DNA of 64,000 nucleotides from Acidobacteriota bacterium (GTDB lineage: Bacteria; Acidobacteriota; Vicinamibacteria; Vicinamibacterales; CAVVIG01). A program made the position numbers and the translations under genes. The stretch is taken from contig QHWB01000030.1 in assembly GCA_003222395.1 (NCBI GenBank), forward strand, positions 1 through 64,000. The letters run 5' to 3'. Of the stretch, positions 11,044 to 64,000 are shown one piece after another. The notes under the pieces are model-generated. The model did no database searches. It was not told the origin of the DNA and was given only the letters and a program-made list of their open reading frames with translations. Every line of letters begins with the position of its first letter. The stretch's first letter is position 1.

Positions 11044-11835
11044 TCAGAGAACACCCTTGATCAAACCCCCATCGACCTGCACCGACGCTCCGGTGATGTA
11101 CGACGCGGCATCGGACAGCAAGAATGCCGCCGCCCGTCCGAAATCCACGGGCTGGCCGTATCGACCAATGGGAATGCTCGCGAGCGCGCGCGACTGCACC
11201 TCGCCGACGCTGATGCCGTTCTTCTTCGCGTTCACCTCGTCGAGCCACCGCACGCGATCGGTCTCGATGCGGCCGGGAATCAGCTGGTTGACGCGGATGC
11301 GGCTCGGAGCGAGCTCGAGCGACAGCGTCTTGGCGAGCGCCGACACCGAGGCCCGTAGCACGTTCGACAGCGCGAGATTCACGATCGGCTCCTTCACGGA
11401 CGACGAGGTGCCGACGAGAATCGATCCGCCGCCGCGCGTCTGCATCGACGGCACGGCGAGCCGCACGAGCCGGACGACGCTCATCAGCAGTGATTCGAAC
11501 GCCGCCTGCCACGCCGCATCGTCGAACGACACCGCGGCGCCGGCGGGCGGTCCGCCGGTGTTGCAGAACAGGAGATCGACGCCGCCGAACTCGCGCAGCG
11601 TCGTCGCGTGCCACTGGCCGATCGCGTCGCGGTTGCTGAGATCGGCCGCAACGGCGACCGCGCGCGAACCGGTCTCGCGCTGAATCGTTCCGGCCGCGCC
11701 GCGGATCGCGTCATGGTCGCGCGACGCCATCGAGACCGACGCGCCTTCCGCCGCCAGCGCGCGCGCCACCGCGTATCCGAGCCCTTTGCTCGCGCCGCCA
11801 ACCATCGCGATTTTGTTCTTGAGACCGAGATCCAT
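11044..11835 (-). CDS. Atypical short-chain dehydrogenase/reductase
   Basis: A protein of 263 residues with a complete Rossmann fold. The cofactor loop is GGASKGLG (about 14-21), the N-A-G element is replaced by CNTGG, and the C-terminal region has QVDGGL. The canonical catalytic Tyr-x-x-x-Lys is absent: after the serine-rich strand VGTSSSVKEP comes NLALSNVLRAS, with Leu/Arg where Tyr/Lys would sit. This matches a known SDR subgroup that lacks the full tetrad, so an oxidoreductase reaction should not be assumed. The ATG at 11835 is preceded by a heptad tract rather than a conventional leader. Confidence 0.88.
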   Translation of the reverse strand: MDLGLKNKIAMVGGASKGLGYAVARALAAEGASVSMASRDHDAIRGAAGTIQRETGSRAVAVAADLSNRDAIGQWHATTLREFGGVDLLFCNTGGPPAGAAVSFDDAAWQAAFESLLMSVVRLVRLAVPSMQTRGGGSILVGTSSSVKEPIVNLALSNVLRASVSALAKTLSLELAPSRIRVNQLIPGRIETDRVRWLDEVNAKKNGISVGEVQSRALASIPIGRYGQPVDFGRAAAFLLSDAASYITGASVQVDGGLIKGVL

Positions 11836-11848
11836 GGCTTCCTGTCAC

Positions 11849-11952
11849 AAGTACGAAGTGTGAAGTACGAAGTGTGAAGTACGAAGTTCGAAGGTGCGTC
11901 GTGCTGGTGTACTTCACCGCTTCGACCTTCTTACTTCGAACTTCTTACTTCC
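11849..11952. repeat. Short-period inverted tract T4 (GAAGTAC heptads)
   Basis: The left arm (11849-11894) is built from GAAGTAC/GAAGTGT heptads. The right arm (11925-11952) carries the complementary words CTTCTTACTTCGAACTTC, so the tract can fold into a long imperfect hairpin. It lies between the SDR start and the truncated aldolase-family gene, whose last codons it encodes. Confidence 0.8.
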
Positions 11953-19322: not shown

Positions 19323-19602
19323 GCGCTTGCACGGAGAGCGCAGGGAGGAGCCGGTGGCGCACGGTGCCGAGACACGTCATGGCTCGGCACCATTGCGAGC
19401 GCAGTGCCACGCGCGCCGCACGCACGCAGGTGGAACCGGTTTGCCGATGTTATCCGCCCGCGATCCGTACGAATGGAAACGCAGGTGGCTTTTCGGGCGC
19501 GCCCGTTCCACGCGACGGTCAGCGCGACGCGTTTGCCACGCCTTCGTCGTGTCGGGAAATCGGCCGGCGCCGACGACTTTTACACTGTGGATGGATTCGC
19601 GC

Positions 19603-19720
19603 GCTCGCCTGAAAGGCTCGCGCTACAGATAGCGCGGACAAGCACGGCGCAGCCGGCACGAACAACCGGGGCGTCGCCAGTACGAACAACCGGGGCGTAG
19701 CGCGAGGCTTTCAGCCGAGC
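19603..19720. repeat. REP doublet (REPIN) with widely spaced units
   Basis: The left REP (19603-19626) ends in CTAC, i.e. GTAG on the minus strand; the right REP (19697-19720) begins GTAG. The cores are GCCTTTCAGGC and GGCTTTCAGCC, which covary. Between them ACGAACAACCGGGGCGT occurs twice as a direct repeat. Confidence 0.75.
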
Positions 19721-26373: not shown

Positions 26374-26439
26374 GTAGCGCGAGACTTTAGCCGAGCGTCG
26401 GCCGCGGCGGCCCGCGCTCGCCTGAAAGGCTCGCGCTAC
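26374..26439. repeat. REPIN between convergent genes
   Basis: A REP beginning GTAG (26374-26396, core GACTTTAGCC) faces a second REP ending CTAC (26416-26439, core GCCTGAAAGGC). It lies just after the efflux operon and just before the stop of the AI-2E permease gene, where it could also act as a bidirectional terminator hairpin. Confidence 0.8.
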
Positions 26440-26453
26440 ACGTGCGAATCGCG

Positions 26454-28489: not shown

Positions 28490-29548
28490 GTGCGGTCCCC
28501 GCTGGTGGCGCGGCCCTCTCAGGGCCGCGATCGCGGGCCTAAAAGGCGCGCGCTACATCTGATTACCATCGTCGCGTTCGCGGCCGGCGTAGCCGCGCAA
28601 ACCGACACACGGCCGTCGTTTTCCGAGTGGCTTGCCGGCGTCCGGACCGAAGCGTTGTCGCGCGGCATCCGGCAGGAGATCGTCGACGAGGCGCTGTCGA
28701 ACATCGAGGAGCCGTTGCCGGTGGTCATCGAGCGCGATCGAACGCAGGCCGAGCGGATCCTGCCGCTCGAGACCTACGTCGCCCGCCGGCTCAAGCCGAA
28801 ATTCATCCGGACTGCGCGTGAGAGATTCGAGAAGCATCGCGCCCTGCTGACCGAGGTCGGCGAGGCCTACGGCGTCTCGCCACGCATCATCGTCGCCATC
28901 TGGGGGCTGGAGACCAACTTCGGCGGCTTCAGCGGCGTCCGGCCGACGATTGTGGCGCTGGCGACGCTCGCGTGGGATCCGCGGCGGTCGACGTTCTTCC
29001 GGGGCGAGCTGTTCAACGCGCTCGAGATCGTCAACCGCGGCGACGTCGATCTCGCGCACCTTCGCGGATCGTGGGCCGGCGCGATGGGACAGGTGCAGTT
29101 CATGCCGTCGAGTTACCTGCAGTACGCGGAGGATTACGACGGCGACGGCCGGCGCGACATCTGGTCGACGCCCCCCGACATCTTCGCGTCGATCGCGAAC
29201 TACCTGTCGGGCCACGGCTGGACGGCGGACGAACCCTGGGGTCGAGAGGTAAAGGTGACGCGCGAGGTTGCACGGAAGGTGGCAAACGACGTCGCGCGGC
29301 GCAACGGTTCGTGTCAGGCGACGCGCGACATGACCGTTGCGCTTCCGCTCGCGAAGTGGCAGGCGCTCGGCGTTCGCCTGCCGGGCGGCAACGCGCTGCC
29401 GAAAGGCGACCGAACCGCGTCGATGGTCCGCGGCGGCAAGCGCTCGTTCCTCGTGTACCGCAACTACGATGCGCTGCTCGACTACAATTGCGCGCATTCA
29501 TACGCCATCAGTGTCGGGCTGCTGGCCGACAGCATCGGACGTCGGTGA
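28490..29548 (+). CDS. MltB-type lytic murein transglycosylase
   Basis: 352 residues. A slt70/MltB-like catalytic domain has the catalytic Glu141 in IWGLETNFGG, followed by the family motifs SWAGAMGQVQFMPSSYLQYA and DYDGDGRRDIWSTPPDIFASIANYL. It cleaves peptidoglycan glycan strands with 1,6-anhydro formation in the periplasm. The signal peptide (about 22-36) is preceded by an unusual ~20-residue Arg/Pro-rich extension encoded by a REPIN (28505-28556). The GTG at 28490 lies six bases after TAGACT, suggesting a leaderless message. No ATG or GTG occurs between the repeat and the hydrophobic core. Confidence 0.9.
   Translation: MRSPLVARPSQGRDRGPKRRALHLITIVAFAAGVAAQTDTRPSFSEWLAGVRTEALSRGIRQEIVDEALSNIEEPLPVVIERDRTQAERILPLETYVARRLKPKFIRTARERFEKHRALLTEVGEAYGVSPRIIVAIWGLETNFGGFSGVRPTIVALATLAWDPRRSTFFRGELFNALEIVNRGDVDLAHLRGSWAGAMGQVQFMPSSYLQYAEDYDGDGRRDIWSTPPDIFASIANYLSGHGWTADEPWGREVKVTREVARKVANDVARRNGSCQATRDMTVALPLAKWQALGVRLPGGNALPKGDRTASMVRGGKRSFLVYRNYDALLDYNCAHSYAISVGLLADSIGRR
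28505..28556. repeat. REPIN variant encoding the N-terminus of the lytic transglycosylase
   Basis: GTGG with core GGCCCTCTCAGGGCC (28505-28528) faces GCGGGCCTAAAAGGCGCGCG-CTAC (28532-28556, GTAG on the minus strand). Stem sequence differs from other REPs but the arrangement is the same. Confidence 0.65.
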
Positions 29549-29552
29549 ATTG

Positions 29553-29683
29553 TCAAAGTACGAAGTACGAAGTACGAAGTACGAAGTGCGAAGTACGAAG
29601 TCTGAAGTACGAAGTAGTAATGATGTCGAGTCGCACGGCTTCGGACTTGGTACTTCGGACCTCGTACTTCAAACTTCGCACTG
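29553..29683. repeat. Short-period inverted tract T8 (GAAGTAC heptads)
   Basis: Perfect and near-perfect GAAGTAC heptads run from 29555 to 29615 (nine copies), facing GTACTTC-type words at 29649-29680. It is the same word class as tract T4. It ends 14-17 bases before the start codon at 29697, where AGGGGAGC is the ribosome-binding site. Confidence 0.85.
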
Positions 29684-31742: not shown

Positions 31743-33089
31743 ATGATAAGCGCCCTGACGACCGACCTGTATCAGCTGACGATGGCCGCCGGTTATTGGC
31801 GTGCGGACCACGTCTGCCCTGCCACGTTCGAGCTGTTCGTCCGGCGTCTGCCGTCTCGGCGATCGTTCTTGGTGACCGCCGGCCTCGACCAGGCCCTCGA
31901 CTATCTCGAGCATCTCAGGTTCACGGACGAGGAGCGCACGTGGCTGCGCGAACGGCCGCAGTTTGCGAAGGTGCCGGGCGAGTTCTTCGACGACTACCTG
32001 CAATCGTTCCGCTTTACCGGCGATGTGTGGGCGATGGCGGAAGGAACGCCGGTATTCGCGAACGAGCCGCTGCTGCGCGTGACGGCGTCGCTGCCCGAGG
32101 CGCAGCTGGTGGAGACCGCGCTCCTCGCGATCGTCAGCTTTCAGACGAGCGTGGCGAGCAAGGCCGCCCGGATCGTGCGCGCGGCACAGGGCCGCGCGGT
32201 CGTCGAATTCGGCGCGCGGCGCGCACACGGCGTCGATTCGGCGCTCGCGGCGGCGCGCGCGTCGTTCATCGGTGGCTGCCAGGGGACGTCGCTGGTCGAA
32301 GCCGCGCGTCGCTTTGGCGTGCCGGCGTCCGGCACGATGGCGCATTCGTGGGTGCAGGCGTTTCCGACGGAGCGCGACGCATTCATCGAGTTCAGTCGCA
32401 GCTTCTCCGAATCGGCGGTCTACCTGCTGGACACCTACGACACGCTGGCGGCAGCGCGATCGCTCGTGGCGTCCGGGCTGCGGCCGCCGATGGTGCGTCT
32501 GGACAGCGGCGATCTCGACGCGCTCAGCCGGGAGGTGCGGCGCATCCTCGATCAGAGCGGCCTCCGGTCGACGAAAATCTTCGCGACCGGCGACCTCGAC
32601 GAGCATCGCATCGCGGCACTCGTCGCCGCCGGCGCGCCCATCGATGGCTTCGGCGTCGGCACGGCGCTGTCGACGGTAAGCGACGCGCCGGCGCTCTCGG
32701 CGGTCTACAAGCTCGTGGAGGTTCGCGGCCGCGGCGATCGCGACGCGACCGGCGTCGTGAAGCTCAGTCCCGGCAAGGAGACGTGGCCGGGCCAGAAGCA
32801 GGTTTGGCGATTCATGCGGAGCGGCCGCGCGGCGGGAGATGTCATCGGCGCCGCCGACGAACCCGCGCCAGAGGGAGGCGTCGCCCTGCTGAAGCCCGCG
32901 ATGCGCGCGGGCAAGCGATTGATCCCGTCCGTGCCGCTGCCGGAGCTGTGCGCCGATTGCCGCAGATCGATCGACACGTTGCCCGAAGACGTGCGCGCGT
33001 TGGACGCTAGCAGCGACATCTATCCGGTTCGAATGAGCGATCGATTGCAAGACGCTCGGCTGAAAGCCTCGCGCCACAGGGATGCGTAG
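31743..33089 (+). CDS. pncB: Nicotinate phosphoribosyltransferase
   Basis: 448 residues. It converts nicotinate and PRPP to nicotinate mononucleotide in NAD salvage. Family motifs: TDLYQLTMAAGYW at the N-terminus, VEFGARRAHGVDSALAAARASFIGG, GTMAHSWVQAF with the catalytic-loop histidine, VRLDSGDL and FGVGTALSTVSDAPALSAVYKLVE. The C-terminus carries a Cys-containing segment (LCADC) like other bacterial members. The last ~12 residues (ARLKASRHRDA) and the TAG stop are supplied by a REP cluster (33054-33145), so the native end was probably a little earlier. The leader is a heptad tract. Confidence 0.95.
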   Translation: MISALTTDLYQLTMAAGYWRADHVCPATFELFVRRLPSRRSFLVTAGLDQALDYLEHLRFTDEERTWLRERPQFAKVPGEFFDDYLQSFRFTGDVWAMAEGTPVFANEPLLRVTASLPEAQLVETALLAIVSFQTSVASKAARIVRAAQGRAVVEFGARRAHGVDSALAAARASFIGGCQGTSLVEAARRFGVPASGTMAHSWVQAFPTERDAFIEFSRSFSESAVYLLDTYDTLAAARSLVASGLRPPMVRLDSGDLDALSREVRRILDQSGLRSTKIFATGDLDEHRIAALVAAGAPIDGFGVGTALSTVSDAPALSAVYKLVEVRGRGDRDATGVVKLSPGKETWPGQKQVWRFMRSGRAAGDVIGAADEPAPEGGVALLKPAMRAGKRLIPSVPLPELCADCRRSIDTLPEDVRALDASSDIYPVRMSDRLQDARLKASRHRDA

Positions 33090-33145
33090 CGCACGCCTCA
33101 GGGGAGCGCGCGCAGGGATCCGTAGCGCGAGCCTTTCAGGCGAGC
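33054..33145. repeat. REP cluster of three units overlapping the pncB and MBL-gene 3' ends
   Basis: Units lie at 33054-33077 (ending CCAC), 33086-33108 (GTAG, degenerate core) and 33122-33145 (GTAG, core GCCTTTCAGGC). The second unit provides the pncB stop codon; the third encodes ARLKGSRY at the C-terminus of the opposite-strand gene. Confidence 0.75.
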
Positions 33146-37869: not shown

Positions 37870-38628
37870 ATGAAACTGGCCACCTGGAACGTCAACGGCA
37901 TCCGGGCGCGTCAGGCTCAAGTCCAGGAATGGATCGAGCATGAGCGTCCGGACGTCGTCTGCCTCCAGGAGATCAAAGCCACTTCCGATCAGATCCCCAT
38001 GTTCCTGTGTGAACTGGAGGGATATTGGTGCTATTGGCACGGCGGCAAGGGCTACTCAGGCGTCGCGCTGCACGTCAGCAAAGCCTTCGCGCCCGAACGT
38101 CCTCCGTTCGTTCATCCTGACTTCGACTACGAGCAGCGCATCGTCACCGTCGACGTCAGCTCGGCGCTCGGCCCGCTGACCGTCGCATCGGTGTACGTAC
38201 CGAACGGCGGCAAGGATTTTCCGGCCAAGATGAACTTCCTCGAGGCGATGGACGCGTTCGCGGTGTCGCACGGGGCGGCCGGGAAGACGATCGTCATGAT
38301 GGGCGACATGAACGTCGCGCGCACCGAGCGCGACGTGCACCCGAAAGAGCGGAAGCCGCGCGCGATCGGCCAGCTCCCCGAAGAACGCGCGATCGTCGAG
38401 CGAATCCTCAGCCGCGGTCTCGTCGACGTCGGCCGCGCGCTCGATCCCGACAACGATGGGCTCTTCACATGGTGGGCGCCGTGGCGCAACATGCGCCAGC
38501 GCAACATCGGGTGGCGGCTCGATTACGTGTTCGCGACCGAATCGCTCGCCAGACGCGCGACGGCGTGTCCGGTGCAGAAGGATGTGGGGACGAGCGACCA
38601 TGCGCCGGTGATCGCGGTATTCTCCTAG
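37870..38628 (+). CDS. xth: Exodeoxyribonuclease III
   Basis: 252 residues, typical for ExoIII/AP endonucleases of the EEP superfamily. Motifs: [13 protein letters not shown], the catalytic Glu in [31 protein letters not shown] with Asp/Asn, [11 protein letters not shown] and the final TSDHAPVIA with the catalytic Asp-His. It repairs abasic sites and degrades 3' ends of duplex DNA. No ribosome-binding site is visible because a CAATCTG heptad tract runs up to the ATG. A CACGAAA tract separates it from lysC. Confidence 0.95.
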
Positions 38629-38630
38629 TC

Positions 38631-38741
38631 ACGAAACATACGAAATCACGAAACACACGAAATCAATTAGCCTTAGGCTTGGGCTACAAAAGAATTCTGT
38701 TTCGTGAGTGTCGTGCCTTCGTGTTCTTCGTGGTGGCTGTG
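38631..38741. repeat. Short-period inverted tract T11 (CACGAAA class)
   Basis: ACGAAAC/ACGAAATC words at 38631-38668 face TTCGTGAGTGTCGTG and TTCGTGTTCTTCGTGG at 38699-38734. It fills the interval between xth and lysC and abuts the lysC start. Confidence 0.75.
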
Positions 38742-40004
38742 ATGTCAGTAACAGTGCAGAAATACGGCGGCTCGAGCGTCGCTGACGTCACCCGCATCAA
38801 GCGCGTCGCCGAGCGGGTGATGGAGACCAAGCGGCGGGGACACGATGTCGTCGTCGTCGTCTCGGCCATGGGCGACACCACCGACGATCTGCTGGCGCTC
38901 GCCAGGCAGGTTTCGGCCAATCCGGAGCGCCGAGAGCTCGACATGCTGCTCACGGCCGGCGAGCGGATCGCGATGGCGGTGCTGTCGATGGCGATTCGCG
39001 AGCTCGGCGGCGATGCCATCAGCTTCACCGGGAGCCAGTCGGGCATCATCACCAACGATCGTCACGTGGACGCGCGCATCATCGAGGTGCGTCCGTTCCG
39101 CGTGCAGGACGAGCTGGCGCGCGGCAAAATCGTCGTCATCGCCGGATATCAGGGCGTCTCGTACCGGCGGGAAGTGACGACGCTCGGGCGCGGCGGCAGC
39201 GACACGACGGCGGTCGCGATGGCGGCGGCGCTCGGAGCCGAGTACTGCGAGATTTGCTCGGACGTCGACGGCGTCTACACCGCCGACCCGCGCGTGGTGA
39301 CGTCGGCGCGCCGGATCGGGACACTGTCGTACGAAGAAACGCAGGAGCTGGCGGAAGCCGGCGCGAGAGTGCTGAACGCGCAGGCGGTGGAATTCGCAAA
39401 GGAAAAAGGGATTGCGATCTACGCGCGCGCGACGGCATCGCCGCTTCCGGGTGCAGATCCGTCTGCTGACGGCACCGTGGTACGCCGCTTCCCGCCGCGG
39501 ATGCCCGGCGTGGTCGTCGGCATCGCGAGCGAGAAGGACGTACTGGTGCTCACGGCCCGGGTGCCGCAGGTGGCGCGGGGCTTTGAGCCGAGCGATCTCC
39601 GCTCGCCTGAAAGGCTCGCGCTCCAGGTGATGGCCGTGCTCGACGAGCATCGCGTCGCCGGGAAGCAGCTCCACCTCGCCGACGGCCAGCTGACCGTCGT
39701 GGTGTCGCGCGAGAACCTGCACGAGGAAGCGCGTGTGCGCGCAGCACTTCACGCGCAGTTCGGCGACGCCGTCCGGATCACCGACGCGCTCGGCGCCGTG
39801 AGCGCGATCGGCGCCGGCATCAACGCGTCGTTCCACAACCTGCGGCGCGGATCGGACGCGCTCGCGTCGGCCGGCATTGCCGCGACCGGCATCGCGACGT
39901 CGTCGTTCCGCATCACGTGGACAATCGATCGCGGCAGACTGGACGACGCCGTGCGCCTGTTCCATCGTACGTTCATCGAAGAACGACAAACGCCCGTGCC
40001 GTGA
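38742..40004 (+). CDS. lysC: Aspartate kinase with an in-frame REPIN insertion
   Basis: 420 residues. The kinase domain has the signature [11 protein letters not shown] at the N-terminus, the Thr/Ser-rich [21 protein letters not shown], and [13 protein letters not shown]. Two ACT domains follow for feedback control by lysine and/or threonine. It phosphorylates aspartate, the first step to lysine, threonine, methionine and diaminopimelate. Residues about 277-295 ([17 protein letters not shown]) are encoded by a REPIN placed between the kinase and regulatory regions; aspartokinases lack this stretch. Whether it alters inhibition is unknown. The ATG at 38742 is chosen because homology starts there. 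Confidence 0.95.
39570..39624. repeat. In-frame REPIN inside lysC
   Basis: Left unit GTGG with core GGCTTTGAGCC (39570-39593); right unit with core GCCTGAAAGGC ending CTCC (39601-39624, GGAG on the minus strand). Spacer seven bases. Confidence 0.8.
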
Positions 40005-40007
40005 TCC

Positions 40008-40080
40008 GCTCGCCTGAAAGGCTCGCGCTACGGGAAAGCTCGCGCGACGATACGATGTAGGGCGAGGGTTTCAGCCGAGC
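40008..40080. repeat. REPIN between lysC and pepT
   Basis: The left unit ends CTAC (40008-40031); the right unit begins GTAG (40057-40080, core GGTTTCAGCC). It begins three bases after the lysC stop and ends nine bases before the pepT start. Confidence 0.8.
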
Positions 40081-40089
40081 CGCACGACA

Positions 40090-41325
40090 ATGTCGAACGT
40101 TCTCGAACGTTTTCTTCGCTACGTCCGCTACGACACGCAATCGAACGAACAGTCGAAGACGTATCCCAGCACCGACAAACAGCTCGTGCTGCTGCGCGAT
40201 CTGGCGGCGGAGCTGCGCGACGTCGGCCTGCACGACGCCGCAATCGACGACTATGGGTACGTGATGGCGACGGTGCCCGCGACGACCAGCCGCGACGTGG
40301 CCACGATTGGATTCATCGCCCACGTCGACACGTCGCCCGAAATGAGCGGCGCCGACGTCCGACCGATCGTGCACTCCGCCTACGACGGGCGCGATCTCGT
40401 CCTGCCCGACGACCCGACCGCCGTGCTGCGGCTCGCGAACGATCCGGCGCTCGGCGAGCAGATGGGACACGACATCGTCACCGCGTCCGGCGCGACGCTG
40501 CTCGGCGCCGACGACAAGGCAGGCGTCGCCGAAATCGTGACGGCGGCTGCGTACCTCGCGGCGCATCCGGAGATCGAGCACGGACCGATCCGCGTCGCCT
40601 TCACGCCGGACGAGGAAGTGGGACGCGGCACGCAGCATTTCGACGTGGCGCGATTCGGCGCCGTGTGCGCCTACACGATGGACGGAGGGGAGCGCGGCGA
40701 AATCGAGATGGAAAGCTTCTCGGCCGACGCGATGACGGTGACGTTCCACGGCTTCAACACGCATCCCGGCTACGCGAAGGGCCGGATGGTGAACGCCATC
40801 AAAGCCGCCGCTGCGTTCATCGATCGGCTGCCGCGCGACACCATGAACCCGGAGGCGACCGACGGCTACGACGGCTTCGTGCATCCGTACGTCGTCAACG
40901 CGAGCGTCGACAGGACGTCGGTGCGACTGATCGTCCGCGATTTCGTGACGAGCGGGCTGAGGGAAAAGGCAGCGCTCCTCGCGGAGCTCGCGCGCGAGGC
41001 CGCGCTGGTGTATCCAGGCACACGCGTCGAGCTCGCCATCGAGGAACAGTATCGGAACATGAAAGAGGTGCTCGAAAGGCATCCGGCGATCGTCGAGCAC
41101 GCGCGCAGCGCCATCCGCGACGCCGGTCTCGAACCCCGCTCCCGTCCCATCCGCGGCGGCACCGACGGATCGCGTCTCTCGTTCATGGGTCTGCCGACGC
41201 CGAACCTGTTCGCCGGCGAGCACAACTTTCACTCGCGGCTCGAATGGGTCTCCGCGCAGGACATGGAGAAGGCGGTCGAGGTCATCGTGCACCTGTGTCG
41301 CAGGTGGGCGCGCCCCGGCGCTTGA
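40090..41325 (+). CDS. pepT: Peptidase T (tripeptide aminopeptidase)
   Basis: 411 residues, M20B metallopeptidase. Zinc ligands and catalytic residues are seen in GFIAHVDTSPEMSG (His/Asp), LLGADDKAGVAEI (bridging Asp), FTPDEEVGRG (Glu-Glu), YTMDGGERGEIE (Asp) and NLFAGEHNFHSRLEW (His). It removes the N-terminal residue of tripeptides in the cytoplasm. The leader is a REPIN. Its 3' end overlaps the convergent membrane-protein gene by 44 bases. Confidence 0.95.
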   Translation: MSNVLERFLRYVRYDTQSNEQSKTYPSTDKQLVLLRDLAAELRDVGLHDAAIDDYGYVMATVPATTSRDVATIGFIAHVDTSPEMSGADVRPIVHSAYDGRDLVLPDDPTAVLRLANDPALGEQMGHDIVTASGATLLGADDKAGVAEIVTAAAYLAAHPEIEHGPIRVAFTPDEEVGRGTQHFDVARFGAVCAYTMDGGERGEIEMESFSADAMTVTFHGFNTHPGYAKGRMVNAIKAAAAFIDRLPRDTMNPEATDGYDGFVHPYVVNASVDRTSVRLIVRDFVTSGLREKAALLAELAREAALVYPGTRVELAIEEQYRNMKEVLERHPAIVEHARSAIRDAGLEPRSRPIRGGTDGSRLSFMGLPTPNLFAGEHNFHSRLEWVSAQDMEKAVEVIVHLCRRWARPGA

Positions 41326-43030
41326 CGACCGCGGCGCGTCCGAAGCGCGCGACGACGTCGACGCTCGTGCGGATGTCGCGGGGCAATCGGTCGAAATCGT
41401 CGGCGATGGCGTAAGGCAGCCCGCTCGGATAGATCCACCGGATCAGCGCTTTCTGCGGGTCGAACGTGTCCGGATCTTCCATCCGCGCGGTCGGCCGCGG
41501 ATTTCGCAGTACCGCGAGATGCAGCCAGTACGCCGTGTAGCCATTCGAAACGAGATAGTCGACGCACGCAGCCGGCGCGTGCTCGCGCGTCCAGATGCCC
41601 GCCCGCAGGATGGGCTTCGTGATGACCGGCGCCGCGCGCGGCGGATGCGTCGCGGCGAAAACCGAGAAGACGGCGATCAGTAATCCGGCGGAGGCCGGAC
41701 GCCACCGGAAGCCCAGTTGACGTCCGGCCTGAATGAGAGCAGCAATCGCGACCGCGCCGCAAACGGCCAGCGGATAGATCGCGAGGTACATCATTTTCAG
41801 CGCAATGTACGGCGTGTCGGCGCCGCGACGCTTCGCGACGACGAACAGCGCGAACGCCTGGACGGCGATGGCGGCGAGGCACGCCACGAGCGCGCGATCG
41901 ATCGTGCGCGCCGCGATGAGCGCAACGCCAGCGGCGCTCAGCAATAGAAACGTCCATCCGATTGCCGCTACCGACGGGCGCAGCACATATCCGCTCGTCG
42001 CCGCGTATCCGAGCCATTGCACGCGGCCGACGATGTGCACGGCCGCAACGAAGGCGATCGGCACGACGCCGATGACGAAGTGCCGAACGAGCTCGGGCAA
42101 TGGCTGCGGACGCCGCCACAGCATCACCGCCGCGAGGGCGATCAGCGGCGGACCGATCCAGATCGGCCACGCCAGAAACGTCGCCATTCCGGCGAACGCG
42201 AACAGCACCAACGCGCCGATCCAGTGATCGTGTTCCCACACGACGAGCGCCCACAGCATCACGACGGCGAACAGCTCCGCGACGACCTGCGCGATGAACG
42301 AGTGCTCGGTGAACGATCCGAGAAAATACGCGCGCGGGAGGAGGAGGAGCAGCACCGCGCCGACGGCGATGGGCGTTCGAGGCAAGCCGGCCGGCAACAG
42401 CCGCAACGCGATCAGAAAGACGAAGCCCGCCTTCAGCGCAACGGTGAACGCCACGACCGGATACAGCGCGTGCAAACCATCCGTTCGCGTCCACGCGCCG
42501 GCGAGCGCGATCAGCAGATGACTTCCGGGCGTGTAATAGACCATGTCGCCGAGATACGGATCCGACACGACGTCGCGCGACAGCTGCCACTGGCGCTCGA
42601 TGTAGTCGATGAGCACGAGATGATGCGTGATGTCGGGTCCGCCGCCGACCCACAGCAGCGTCGGCCACGCCAGCCACAGGAGCCACACGAATATCGCGCC
42701 CACGATTGCCGCGAACGCAATGAGTTCCTGCTGCCGATGGCTCGCCTGAAAAGCTCGCCCTACCGGACCGTTATCGTGTGACGCGACAAGATTGTTGTAG
42801 CGCGAGGCTCTCAGCCGAGCGCCCGAGGCGTGCCACAGCCAGCGGAACACCATGGCAGCGACGACGATTGCCAACAGCAGGATGACGAACGGCAGAACCG
42901 TGTAGCCGGATCGATAGACGAGATATGCGCTGACGATCGCGGCCGCCGGCAACGACATTGCCGACGCCGCGGCCGCTTCGGCGGGCGTCAGCCGGGAGCG
43001 AACATGCTGGTCTGCCCCTAGGGGCGACAT
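41282..43030 (-). CDS. Polytopic membrane protein (possible GT-C type glycosyltransferase) with REPIN insertion
   Basis: 582 residues with about 12-13 hydrophobic helices and a C-terminal soluble domain (about 480-582). A periplasmic-loop segment GGGPDITHHLVLIDYIERQW after helix 3 and the multi-helix layout resemble GT-C glycosyltransferases, but no definite family motif is seen, so the function is open. The ATG at 43030 overlaps the stop of the upstream DUF1028 gene by 13 bases. Residues about 71-97 (ARLRASRYNNLVASHDNG and PVGRAFQAS) are encoded by a REPIN in a cytoplasmic or periplasmic loop between helices 2 and 3. Confidence 0.75.
   Translation of the reverse strand: MSPLGADQHVRSRLTPAEAAAASAMSLPAAAIVSAYLVYRSGYTVLPFVILLLAIVVAAMVFRWLWHASGARLRASRYNNLVASHDNGPVGRAFQASHRQQELIAFAAIVGAIFVWLLWLAWPTLLWVGGGPDITHHLVLIDYIERQWQLSRDVVSDPYLGDMVYYTPGSHLLIALAGAWTRTDGLHALYPVVAFTVALKAGFVFLIALRLLPAGLPRTPIAVGAVLLLLLPRAYFLGSFTEHSFIAQVVAELFAVVMLWALVVWEHDHWIGALVLFAFAGMATFLAWPIWIGPPLIALAAVMLWRRPQPLPELVRHFVIGVVPIAFVAAVHIVGRVQWLGYAATSGYVLRPSVAAIGWTFLLLSAAGVALIAARTIDRALVACLAAIAVQAFALFVVAKRRGADTPYIALKMMYLAIYPLAVCGAVAIAALIQAGRQLGFRWRPASAGLLIAVFSVFAATHPPRAAPVITKPILRAGIWTREHAPAACVDYLVSNGYTAYWLHLAVLRNPRPTARMEDPDTFDPQKALIRWIYPSGLPYAIADDFDRLPRDIRTSVDVVARFGRAAVVKRRGAPTCDTGAR
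42740..42820. repeat. In-frame REPIN inside the membrane-protein gene
   Basis: Left unit with core GCCTGAAAAGC ending CTAC (42740-42763); right unit beginning GTAG with core GGCTCTCAGCC (42797-42820). Confidence 0.8.
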
Positions 43031-43740
43031 TCCGGGCTGACGGAGCGCGGCTTCCGCTCGTTCCACTTCTCGACGACGCGCTTCAGCTCTGCGATCGGCT
43101 CGGGACTGTCGTCGACCTGCAGCCGCAGGATCGTGTCGTTGTGCAGCCACACGCCGCAGTTCTTCTTCACGATGACGAGCGCCGCCGACTGCTGACCGCG
43201 TTTGTCGCCGCCGCCGGCCTGCCCGCCTTCGAGCGCCGCGACGAGGCGCCGCGAAAGATGTCCTTTCGTGTTCTCGAACGCGTCGATCATGTTGGCGACG
43301 ACCTGCGGTCCGGCGAGGATGTTTCCCTGCGCCGTGCAGAACTTTCCGCTCTTGTGGCCGGCCCACTCCGTCGCTTTCGGGCCGGTGAACGCGCCGCATA
43401 CTCGCCTTTCGCATTCATCACGGCGAACTGGCGTCCCTGCTTCGTCCAGTTCTCCGGCAGCGGATCCGGATCGTCGTCCCACACCTGCCGGACGATCGCG
43501 GCCGGCGCAAGATTCTTTCGCAGCAGCTCCAGCGCCTTCGGGCCGTAGCCGACGTCGACGATCGCCTGCGTCGCGACGACGCCGACGTTCGCTTCGGCCC
43601 ACAACACGCCGTTGCCGACCGAGAAGACGCGCGACTGCACCGCGCCGCCGACTTCGCCCGTGTCCGGATCGTAGCCGAGGATGGAGAAAGTCCCCGTCTC
43701 CCACAGCCCCCCGACGTCGCTCGCCGCCGAGGCCTTCGGC

Positions 43741-58196: not shown

Positions 58197-59762
58197 ATGA
58201 TTTTGCTCGACGGCTCCTCGCTCTCGCTCGAACAACTCCTGAACATCGCGGATGGCGCCGAACGGGTAGGTCTGACGCCCGAGGCGCGCACGCGCGTTCG
58301 GGCATCACGCGACGTCGTCGAGCGGCGCGCGCGCGGCGACGAGCCGGCCTACGGCATCAACACCGGATTTGGATCGTTCGCCGACGTCAAGATCGCGCTC
58401 GGCGCGCTCGAAACGCTGCAGCTGAACCTTCTTCGGAGCCACGCCGCAGGCGTCGGCGATCCGCTGCCGGTCCGCGCGGTGCGCGCGACGATGGCGCTTC
58501 GCGCCAACGTGCTGGCCAAGGGCTTCTCGGGAATCAGCATCGAGACGCTCGACGCGCTGATCGCGCTTGTTAATAATGATGTGCATCCGCGCGTGCCATC
58601 GCGGGGATCGGTCGGCGCCAGCGGCGATCTCGCGCCGCTCGCGCACCTGGCGCTGGTGCTGATTGGGGAAGGTGAGGCGGTTTTTGGTCGCTCGGCTGAA
58701 AGCCTCGCGCTCCACGATGTAGGGCGAGCCTTTCAGGCGAGCCAGACGATGCCGGGAGCAGATGCCCTACAGCGCGCCGGCCTGAAGCCGATCGTCCTCG
58801 GTGCCAAGGAGGGCCTCGCGCTGATCAACGGGACGCAGCCGTCGACCGCCGTTCTCGCGCTGGCGCTTGCGGCGGCCGAACAGCTCGCGCGAGCGGCCGA
58901 CATCGCGGCGGCTCTTTCGATTGACGCCTTGCGCGGCTCCATTCACCCGTTCGAAGGCCGCGTCCACGCGGCCCGCCCCTTCCGCGGACAGCAGATCTCG
59001 GCGGCCAACATCGAGCGCCTGATGCACGGCAGCGGCATCAACGAGTCGCACGAGTTCTGCGGCAAGATCCAGGACGCCTACTCGATGCGGTGCGCGCCGC
59101 AGGTGCACGGCGCGGCCCGCGAAGCGCTCCGGTTCGTCCGAGAAACCGTCGCCATCGAGGCTAACAGCGCCACCGACAACCCGATGGTTTTCGCGGAAAC
59201 CGGCGATATCGTGTCGTGCGGCAACTTTCATGGCGCGCCGATTGCCATCGCGGCCGATCTGCTGGCCGCCGCCATCGTCCCGATCGCCACCATCAGCGAG
59301 CGGCGGACCGATCGCCTCGTCAATCCGGCGCTGAGCGAGCTGCCGGCGTTCCTGACGCGCGAGGGCGGCGTCAATTCCGGCTTCATGCTGGCGCAGGTCA
59401 CGGCCGCCGCCGTCGCGTCGGAGCTCAAGACGCTCGCGCATCCGGCCGGCGTCGACACGATCCCGACGTCGGCGAACAAGGAGGACCACGTCAGCATGAG
59501 CATGACGGCCGCATTGAAAGCCGACGCCGCGGTCGCGCGTGCGCGCGAGGTGGTGGCCATCGAAATTTTATGTGCATGTCAGGCGATCGACCTGCTCGCG
59601 CCGCTCGCAACGTCGCCGCTGTTGAAAAATGTTCACTCGCTCGTCCGATCGCGCGTGCCGACGCTCGCATCCGATCGCCAGCCGTCGCCCGACATCGTCG
59701 CGATCGCAGATCTGATTGCATCGAGCGCGCTAGAAAACGCATGCGACGGTGTAGTCAAGTGA
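58197..59762 (+). CDS. hutH: Histidine ammonia-lyase with in-frame REPIN insertion
   Basis: 521 residues. The MIO cofactor forms from Ala141-Ser142-Gly143 in GSVGASGDLAPLAHLAL. Other motifs: YGINTGFGSFADVKI, LLRSHAAGVGDPL, EGLALINGTQPSTAVLALAL, QDAYSMRCAPQVHG and NSATDNPMVF. It deaminates histidine to urocanate. Residues about 165-183 (SAESLALHDVGRAFQAS) are encoded by a REPIN inserted in the surface loop between GEGEA and MPGADALQRAGL; the family has only a few residues there. TAAGAT lies nine bases before the ATG. hutU follows after a gap with its own promoter. Confidence 0.97.
   Translation: MILLDGSSLSLEQLLNIADGAERVGLTPEARTRVRASRDVVERRARGDEPAYGINTGFGSFADVKIALGALETLQLNLLRSHAAGVGDPLPVRAVRATMALRANVLAKGFSGISIETLDALIALVNNDVHPRVPSRGSVGASGDLAPLAHLALVLIGEGEAVFGRSAESLALHDVGRAFQASQTMPGADALQRAGLKPIVLGAKEGLALINGTQPSTAVLALALAAAEQLARAADIAAALSIDALRGSIHPFEGRVHAARPFRGQQISAANIERLMHGSGINESHEFCGKIQDAYSMRCAPQVHGAAREALRFVRETVAIEANSATDNPMVFAETGDIVSCGNFHGAPIAIAADLLAAAIVPIATISERRTDRLVNPALSELPAFLTREGGVNSGFMLAQVTAAAVASELKTLAHPAGVDTIPTSANKEDHVSMSMTAALKADAAVARAREVVAIEILCACQAIDLLAPLATSPLLKNVHSLVRSRVPTLASDRQPSPDIVAIADLIASSALENACDGVVK
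58690..58742. repeat. In-frame REPIN inside hutH
   Basis: Left unit with core GGCTGAAAGCC ending CTCC (58690-58713, GGAG on the minus strand); right unit beginning GTAG with core GCCTTTCAGGC (58719-58742). The two cores covary. Spacer five bases. Confidence 0.85.
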
Positions 59763-63230: not shown

Positions 63231-63250
63231 CGTCGCGCCTCCGCGTCGCG

Positions 63251-63273
63251 GTCGGCTGAAAGCCTCGCGCTAC
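63251..63273. repeat. Single REP unit overlapping the rnc stop codon
   Basis: The unit ends CTAC on the plus strand (GTAG on the minus strand, core GGCTTTCAGCC). Its TAG is the stop codon of rnc at 63272-63270. Confidence 0.75.
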
Positions 63274-64000
63274 GGCGATTTCAGCTTTTCGAGCGCGGCG
63301 CGGGCCGCTTCCTGCTCCGCGTCCTTCTTGCTCGACCCGGTCGCGCGCGAGAGCGGCTCGCCGCGTACGACGACTTCCACCTCGAACAGCTTGCTGTGAT
63401 CGGGCCCCAGCGTGTTGACGAGGCGGTACTCCGGCAGCGGCTGATCGCGCGACTGCAGCAGCTCCTGCAGCGCCGACTTGTAGTCCTCGCCGCCGACGCC
63501 GTGCCGCCGCACGTCGGCGATGAGATCGCGGAACTCGCGGGCGATGAACCCGCGCGCCGGCTCGATGCCGCCGTCGAGATAGATTGCCGCGAGCAGCGCC
63601 TCGTAGCCGTCGGCCAGCAGCGCCTGTTTCCGCCGCCCGCCGGTCTTCTCCTCGCCTTTGCCGAGCAGCAGATGCTCGCCGATGCGCAGACGCTCGGCCT
63701 GCCGCGCCAGCGACGCCGTCGACACCAGCGACGCCTTCGTCTTCGACTTCTCGCCTTCGTCGAACTCGGGGAACTCGTGAAAGAGCAGATCGGCGACGAC
63801 GAATCCGAGCAGCGCGTCGCCCAGGAACTCCATCGACTCGTTGTCGACGACTCCGCCGCTGACGTCCTCGTTGGCGCGCGACGTGTGCGTCATCGCGTGC
63901 TCGAGCAGCCCGCGGTCCTTGAAGCGGTAGCCGATCGCCTGCTGCAGCGTCTCGAACTCGTCGCGGAGACGAATGACCTCGCCGTTCTTCAGCTCGGTCC
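63270..64000 (-). CDS. rnc: Ribonuclease III, 5' end cut by window edge
   Basis: About 242 codons are visible; the start lies beyond 64000. The RNase III domain has LQQAIGYRFKDRGLLEHAMTHTS and the signature NESMEFLGDALLGFVV, with the catalytic Glu/Asp, and a second acidic cluster in LADGYEALLAAIYLDGG. A double-stranded-RNA-binding domain forms the end (DYKSALQELLQSRDQPLPEYR, FEVEVVVRGEPLSRATGSSKKDAEQEAARAAL). It processes rRNA precursors and structured RNAs. The stop codon is supplied by a REP unit. This enzyme could itself cleave the long hairpins described in this window, although that is only inference. Confidence 0.95.
   Translation of the reverse strand, partial: TELKNGEVIRLRDEFETLQQAIGYRFKDRGLLEHAMTHTSRANEDVSGGVVDNESMEFLGDALLGFVVADLLFHEFPEFDEGEKSKTKASLVSTASLARQAERLRIGEHLLLGKGEEKTGGRRKQALLADGYEALLAAIYLDGGIEPARGFIAREFRDLIADVRRHGVGGEDYKSALQELLQSRDQPLPEYRLVNTLGPDHSKLFEVEVVVRGEPLSRATGSSKKDAEQEAARAALEKLKSP

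Follow-up and report, generated by a model that had tools for sequence, protein, structure and literature searches.

REP sequences of the GTAG and CGTC types have already been found inside genes. According to the passages of that work that deal with intragenic copies, they lie mostly at different sites in genes of the same function, the recB genes of two Xanthomonas species carry a REP at about the same site, and loops and linkers have been proposed as neutral sites for REPs (PMC3733652). Here we describe a window of 64,000 nucleotides, meaning the whole stretch of DNA that was analysed, in which the histidine ammonia-lyase gene hutH carries, in frame, a doublet of the genome's own REP family, within a loop that holds unrelated repeats in related species. 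The HutH loop bears on the question of whether in-frame REPs reflect random survival or particular sites.

The doublet inserted in hutH

The gene and the inserted element comprise the following features.

58197–59762, plus strand: hutH, histidine ammonia-lyase, 521 codons, an intact open frame (Pfam Lyase_aromatic, 617.8 bits; the best PDB matches are HutH)
58617–58625, plus strand: codons 141–143, Ala-Ser-Gly, intact, 22 codons before the insert and invariant in the alignments
58689–58742, plus strand: inserted stretch of 54 nt, codons 165–182, RSAESLALHDVGRAFQAS (from the translation, the comparison with 1gkm and the HutH alignment)
58690–58742, no strand assigned: REPIN-type doublet of 53 nt made of two inverted REPs (from the inverted repeat, the REP profile and the comparison with the consensus)
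58690–58713, minus strand: left REP half of the doublet, 23/24 identical to the consensus GTAGCGCGAGGCTTTCAGCCGAGC
58719–58742, plus strand: right REP half of the doublet, 23/24 identical to the consensus GTAGCGCGAGCCTTTCAGGCGAGC

The hutH product has a full-length match to the Lyase_aromatic family in a Pfam search (residues 9–484, E 1.5e-185) and retains the Ala-Ser-Gly motif of the MIO cofactor. All three residues are invariant in one HutH alignment, and Ala141 and Gly143 also in a second one. When aligned with the solved HutH of Pseudomonas putida (1gkm), the window's protein shows a sole gap of more than one residue; it is 17 residues long and is located at the position of the insert. The HutH alignment likewise gives a net gain of 17 residues over the short form of the loop, and the about 18 extra residues of the initial annotation agree with the 54 nt of codons 165–182. 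The doublet forms an inverted repeat with two 25-nt arms, 84% complementary, and a spacer of 3 nt; its right half carries GTAG, with which the family consensus starts, and its left half GGAG. No target duplication was seen at the insert on a non-systematic look, and the window's genome is the only one of its genus (g1) among the genomes compared.

An AlphaFold2 model of the window's HutH, built from 41 rows (the window and named loci), has a mean pLDDT of 91.8 and adopts the HutH fold, as it aligns to seven HutH entries with Z of 45.4–46.9. The insert is located between strands 160–163 and 184–186 of this model, where the pLDDT averages 69 for residues 161–170 and 51 for residues 171–180. The gene had been annotated as tolerating the insertion in a surface loop, which the model supports in part: it places the insert between two strands at lowered confidence, and the loop would be exposed in the tetramer and the enzyme active. 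With the loop left out, dN/dS is 0.13–0.18 relative to five relatives and 41–48% of the synonymous sites differ. Together with the open frame, the full Pfam match and the gap relative to the solved HutH, these ratios bear out an in-frame insertion in an intact hutH. Given this synonymous divergence, and given that each REP half of the doublet is off the consensus at 1 of 24 bases, the insertion is probably younger than the splits from those five relatives.

The REP family and a Y1 transposase in the host genome

A chance palindrome at hutH was considered and is ruled out by two counts. Allowing up to 3 mismatches, the core GGGCGAGCCTTTCAGGC is matched 17 times in the window, where shuffled sequences would give 0.24. 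For the core GCGCGAGCCTTTCAGGC, searched in the 7.74-Mb genome with up to 2 mismatches allowed, there are 556 matches, whereas reading the pattern backwards gives 10. Further elements of the hutH REP family in the window are listed below.

19600–19720, no strand assigned: REP doublet (19600–19627 and 19697–19720)
26413–26440, no strand assigned: single REP
33051–33145, no strand assigned: REP doublet (33051–33078 and 33122–33145)
39601–39623, minus strand: REP inside a predicted AA_kinase gene (38469–40004, plus strand)
40005–40080, no strand assigned: REP doublet (40005–40032 and 40057–40080)
42740–42820, no strand assigned: REP doublet in frame in a predicted gene (41282–43150, minus strand) whose protein has no Pfam family
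63247–63274, no strand assigned: single REP

The in-frame REPIN at 42740–42820 reads ARLRASRYNNLVASHDNGPVGRAFQAS. The window also contains two arrays (11835–11907 and 29535–29635) of one tandem repeat with a period of 14 nt (AAGTACGAAGT...), which is unrelated to REP.

A REP profile search of 2.05 Mb of the host genome, the window included, returned 247 REP halves against 1 in the reversed sequence. They group into 95 elements, 30 single, 42 double and the remainder in clusters of up to 18, and 39 of the 42 two-unit elements are inverted. The two consensus forms of the REP differ by a swapped stem pair. Among 185 halves fitting the pattern, the middle stem pair is C-G in 109, G-C in 66, T-A in 1 and another combination in 9, and this pair is unpaired or wobble in 9 of the 10 halves outside C-G and G-C, as expected of an imperfect palindrome kept by compensatory changes. 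Head-to-tail arrays of the hutH-type REP are present at G000:C1:153414-153970, C1:163973-164125 and L066:864-1400, with spacings of 36 nt (16 copies among the matches listed), 34 nt (5 copies) and about 37 nt (15 copies, adjoining the transposase gene).

A single Y1_Tnp match (E 3.5e-10) was obtained in the host genome. It falls in an open frame of 166 codons on C106, bordered on one side by 15 REPs of the plus strand and on the other by 4 of the minus strand, which is the RAYT-type arrangement of a transposase gene flanked by the same REP. The genome copy number, the inverted doublet, the GTAG tag and this open frame between REP arrays support the identification of 58690–58742 as a REPIN. Another Y1 transposase gene flanked by the hutH-REP type, by the 2-mismatch pattern, is found in a relative (L384, G023:C114:62551-62877), and the hutH loop of that genome has a different repeat.

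Genes were called with a purpose-written script, at a coding fraction of 0.895, and an element was scored as inside a gene when it lay at least 90 nt within a predicted gene. The family is mostly extragenic, with 74 of the 95 elements outside predicted genes (34 at gene edges and 40 intergenic). The hutH copy is intragenic, one of 21 such elements, a number that may exceed the true count by at least one, as the element at C14:161663, in a FolK/HPPK gene, looks like a native sequence resembling a REP half. The 21 elements are spread over 19 genes, hutH among them, and 16 of these match a Pfam family at E 1e-4. The proteins concerned include a MurF-type ligase, a PurL-like protein, an M20 peptidase, an amidohydrolase, a MoCo-binding oxidase, a ComEC-type protein, an FAD oxidase and an Lhr-type helicase. 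Four of the six frames of the REP unit are stop-free, and peptides from all four are found among the intragenic copies; that of the Lhr-type helicase, RSAKSLALHD...AGRAFQA, closely resembles the hutH peptide. The REPIN of the M20 peptidase (L270:3238-4809) contains a tandem RPNQTPA repeat, and a second extra stretch of this protein, at about residues 116–146 (RGVGTPGVSVRGAGAPG...), is partly shared with G017 alone of 9 relatives. In the amidohydrolase (L296:18344-19825), two REP halves enclose a tandem VALHDTA repeat, a stretch of about 70 residues read in frame.

Unrelated repeats in the HutH loop of relatives

The HutH search matched 13 of the 27 genomes of the family and 89 of the 162 of the order, those 27 included; by record titles, the relatives' group is Acidobacteriota, Vicinamibacteria, Vicinamibacterales. 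The loop-covering loci among the matches listed, with a few partial ones, gave 72 rows that were aligned to a short form, L056. Insertions of at least 7 residues are present in 14 of the 72 rows, all 14 of them at reference position 165, and the longest insertion elsewhere in the alignment, its ends left out, has 6 residues. A second set consisted of the best 80 of 185 named loci, about 20 of which overlap with the first. In this set all 60 HutHs less than 60% identical to L056 have 30–31 residues from GEG to the lysine of KEGL; among the 20 that are at least 60% identical, 9 have 30–31 residues and 11 have 32–62, and insertions of at least 7 residues lie at positions 164 (eight), 315 (three) and 318 (one). 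The counts were taken from the HutH alignments, as a regular expression written for the loop passed over 29 loci. Relatives lacking the repeat yet having the same residues at this position, as would be expected of a shared ancestral loop, were not found among the loops listed, one listing having been made with that expression.

Nine of the 14 long-loop inserts belong to a repeat amplified in their own genome. The repeats, the REP of the window among them, make up six unrelated families, and their hosts belong to three taxonomic families; the own-genome counts cover 10 of the 14 loops (L004, L049, L054 and L072 were left out). KCTYTGCGGGYTYMGCG has 258, 229 and 126 matches in G017, G018 and G019 (hutH loci L002, L009 and L007) against 4, 5 and 9 when read backwards. 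AGCCACCAGCCACCAG, a tandem repeat without a palindrome, has 176 matches against 0 backwards in G021 (L006), and 79 against 0 in its congener G023 (L003), the loop of which is 3 residues above the short form. GTCGATCTGTRGAAAACTCC has 22 and 14 matches in G068 and G072 (L083 and L079) against 0 backwards, and 5 in their congener G073, which has a short loop. In G006 (L005), GGGGTCAGATCTTGATTC has 16 matches against 0 backwards. Two termini of this hutH repeat flank a Y1_Tnp gene on contig C369 of the genome, which suggests that the palindrome in hutH is a shortened form of the Y1_Tnp-bearing element. G081 (L046) has six palindromes GGCACCCCC-N6-GGGGGTGCC genome-wide, one of them in hutH, and none was found in five genomes of its genus. 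The G006 repeat (GGGGTCAGATC) also has 13 matches in G013, a genome without a Y1_Tnp match. The L008 insert, of the CTYTGCGGG type, was tried as a repeat amplified in G009 and rejected (10 matches against 11 in the control); read backwards, this pattern gives 4 to 11 matches in the four genomes concerned, and small counts of it are therefore uninformative.

Such recurrence could reflect a preference of insertion rather than survival, the DNA of the loop attracting single-strand (HUH) transposases. Several inserts are palindromic, Y1_Tnp genes are present in 13 of the 14 genomes searched, and low-copy families still reach the loop, as with the six palindromes of G081. We nevertheless regard this as unlikely. 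By eye, the palindromes begin about 4 to 16 nt from the GEG codons, an offset that differs between relatives; the families are unrelated and that of L006 lacks a palindrome; and loops of two other proteins, the MurF-type ligase and the M20 peptidase, are also recurrent. A single fixed nucleotide target was considered too, and the joins, by eye, give it no support.

These two proteins were hand-picked as REP carriers and compared with 16 and 9 relatives, respectively. G023 has an exact REP core at the MurF site; in its congener G021 two other small palindromes are seen by eye, and the majority of the other relatives are short or unlike in sequence there. Among the relatives compared at the M20 site, G005 shows a stretch resembling the REP (2 mismatches of 17); the loops of G017 and G020 are longer but only weakly REP-like, at 3 and 4 mismatches, and those of the remaining six are short or nearly short. 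Going by these two hand-picked cases, loop recurrence is not confined to hutH.

A quick tree was built, with the loop columns removed, from the 54 rows that reached 57% identity and were longer than 380 residues (18 of the 72 being left out). The 12 loop labels require 13 changes on it, the minimum possible being 11, and L100 sits on a very long branch. The window's hutH is placed among carriers of other inserts with a branch support of 84–86, so that a gain into a short loop and the replacement of an older insert are indistinguishable; the residues flanking the REPIN (AVFG and QTM) fit the short loop. All nine of the tree-clustered HutH rows of the window's family have a changed loop and none is short, two being longer by just 3 and 7 residues. 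This would be expected if a longer loop were useful, whether by stabilizing the enzyme, by binding a partner or by slowing translation at a hairpin, with repeats as the raw material. However, the peptides encoded by the relatives' inserts are mutually unlike, no common sequence, length or charge pattern is apparent among the inserted residues, and the model gives those of the window low confidence, which makes a benefit of this kind improbable. That the copy lies outside a working protein, the gene decaying or the insert being removed at the RNA or protein level, is very improbable: hut genes are dispensable in many bacteria and we found no evidence in support of this idea, whereas hutH has no stop or frameshift, its dN/dS is low as given above and 19 predicted genes, 16 with a Pfam family, carry such elements in open frames.

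A probable tolerant loop and its place among known systems

We favor, with a probability of roughly three in four, the reading that the genome's own GTAG-type REPIN inserted into hutH and survived as an in-frame, stop-free copy in a tolerant loop, the same loop that takes unrelated repeats in relatives. The element was probably moved as single-stranded DNA by the Y1 (RAYT-type) transposase, whose gene lies at a separate locus of the genome. Its survival in hutH would be due to a length that keeps the frame, to the absence of stops in the frame read and to the tip of a β-hairpin that tolerates extra residues; the insertion would be nearly neutral and the enzyme presumably active. Palindromes may insert widely, with in-frame, stop-free copies in tolerant loops as the survivors, and this survival bias would be the cause of the recurrence, the loop retaining whatever repeat is active in the lineage. 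As the repeats that fill the HutH loop of other Vicinamibacterales are unrelated, what recurs would be the site and not the element. The persistence of in-frame copies where extra residues are tolerated accounts for the observations.

More tentatively, the loops of HutH, MurF and the M20 peptidase could be repeated entry points in Vicinamibacterales, through which the palindrome or tandem repeat that happens to be active becomes protein. In that case, loop evolution in these bacteria might proceed to a large extent by repeat capture, and the HutH loop might be hit more often than tolerance leads one to expect, through target bias or the benefit of a longer loop. In any case, six families in one loop amount to a natural replicate experiment, in which the element varies, the site is constant and the protein is an ordinary, assayable enzyme, and insertions in acidobacterial proteins that resemble lineage-specific extensions may be translated mobile repeats.

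Among the open-licence papers searched, none was listed that reports repeats in the loop of HutH or a protein loop occupied by several unrelated repeat families. Intragenic REPs are already known; what is new is that one and the same loop was entered repeatedly by unrelated repeats. The coding palindromes of Nematomorpha, in the passages describing them (PMC6649704), are likewise located inside protein genes, those genes being mitochondrial and animal. The Rickettsia palindromic elements (RPE), as described in part of PMC3733652, are alike in palindrome size and in their in-frame insertion in many genes, and the host genome, too, has in-frame copies within genes encoding known proteins; the hutH element comes from another phylum and, being likened to RPE by description, is not classed as one. 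Closer are the REPINs and RAYTs of Pseudomonas, which are reported to have the same unit of two inverted REPs and a RAYT-type gene flanked by REPs (PMC3116915); the hutH copy differs from them in being coding, with the host transposase as its putative mover. The intragenic GTAG-type REPs, as the corresponding passages of PMC3733652 present them, share with the hutH element the GTAG tag, the inverted dimers, the association with a transposase gene and in-frame copies in genes of known proteins, whereas the HutH loop differs in having received six unrelated repeat families at one site across related species.
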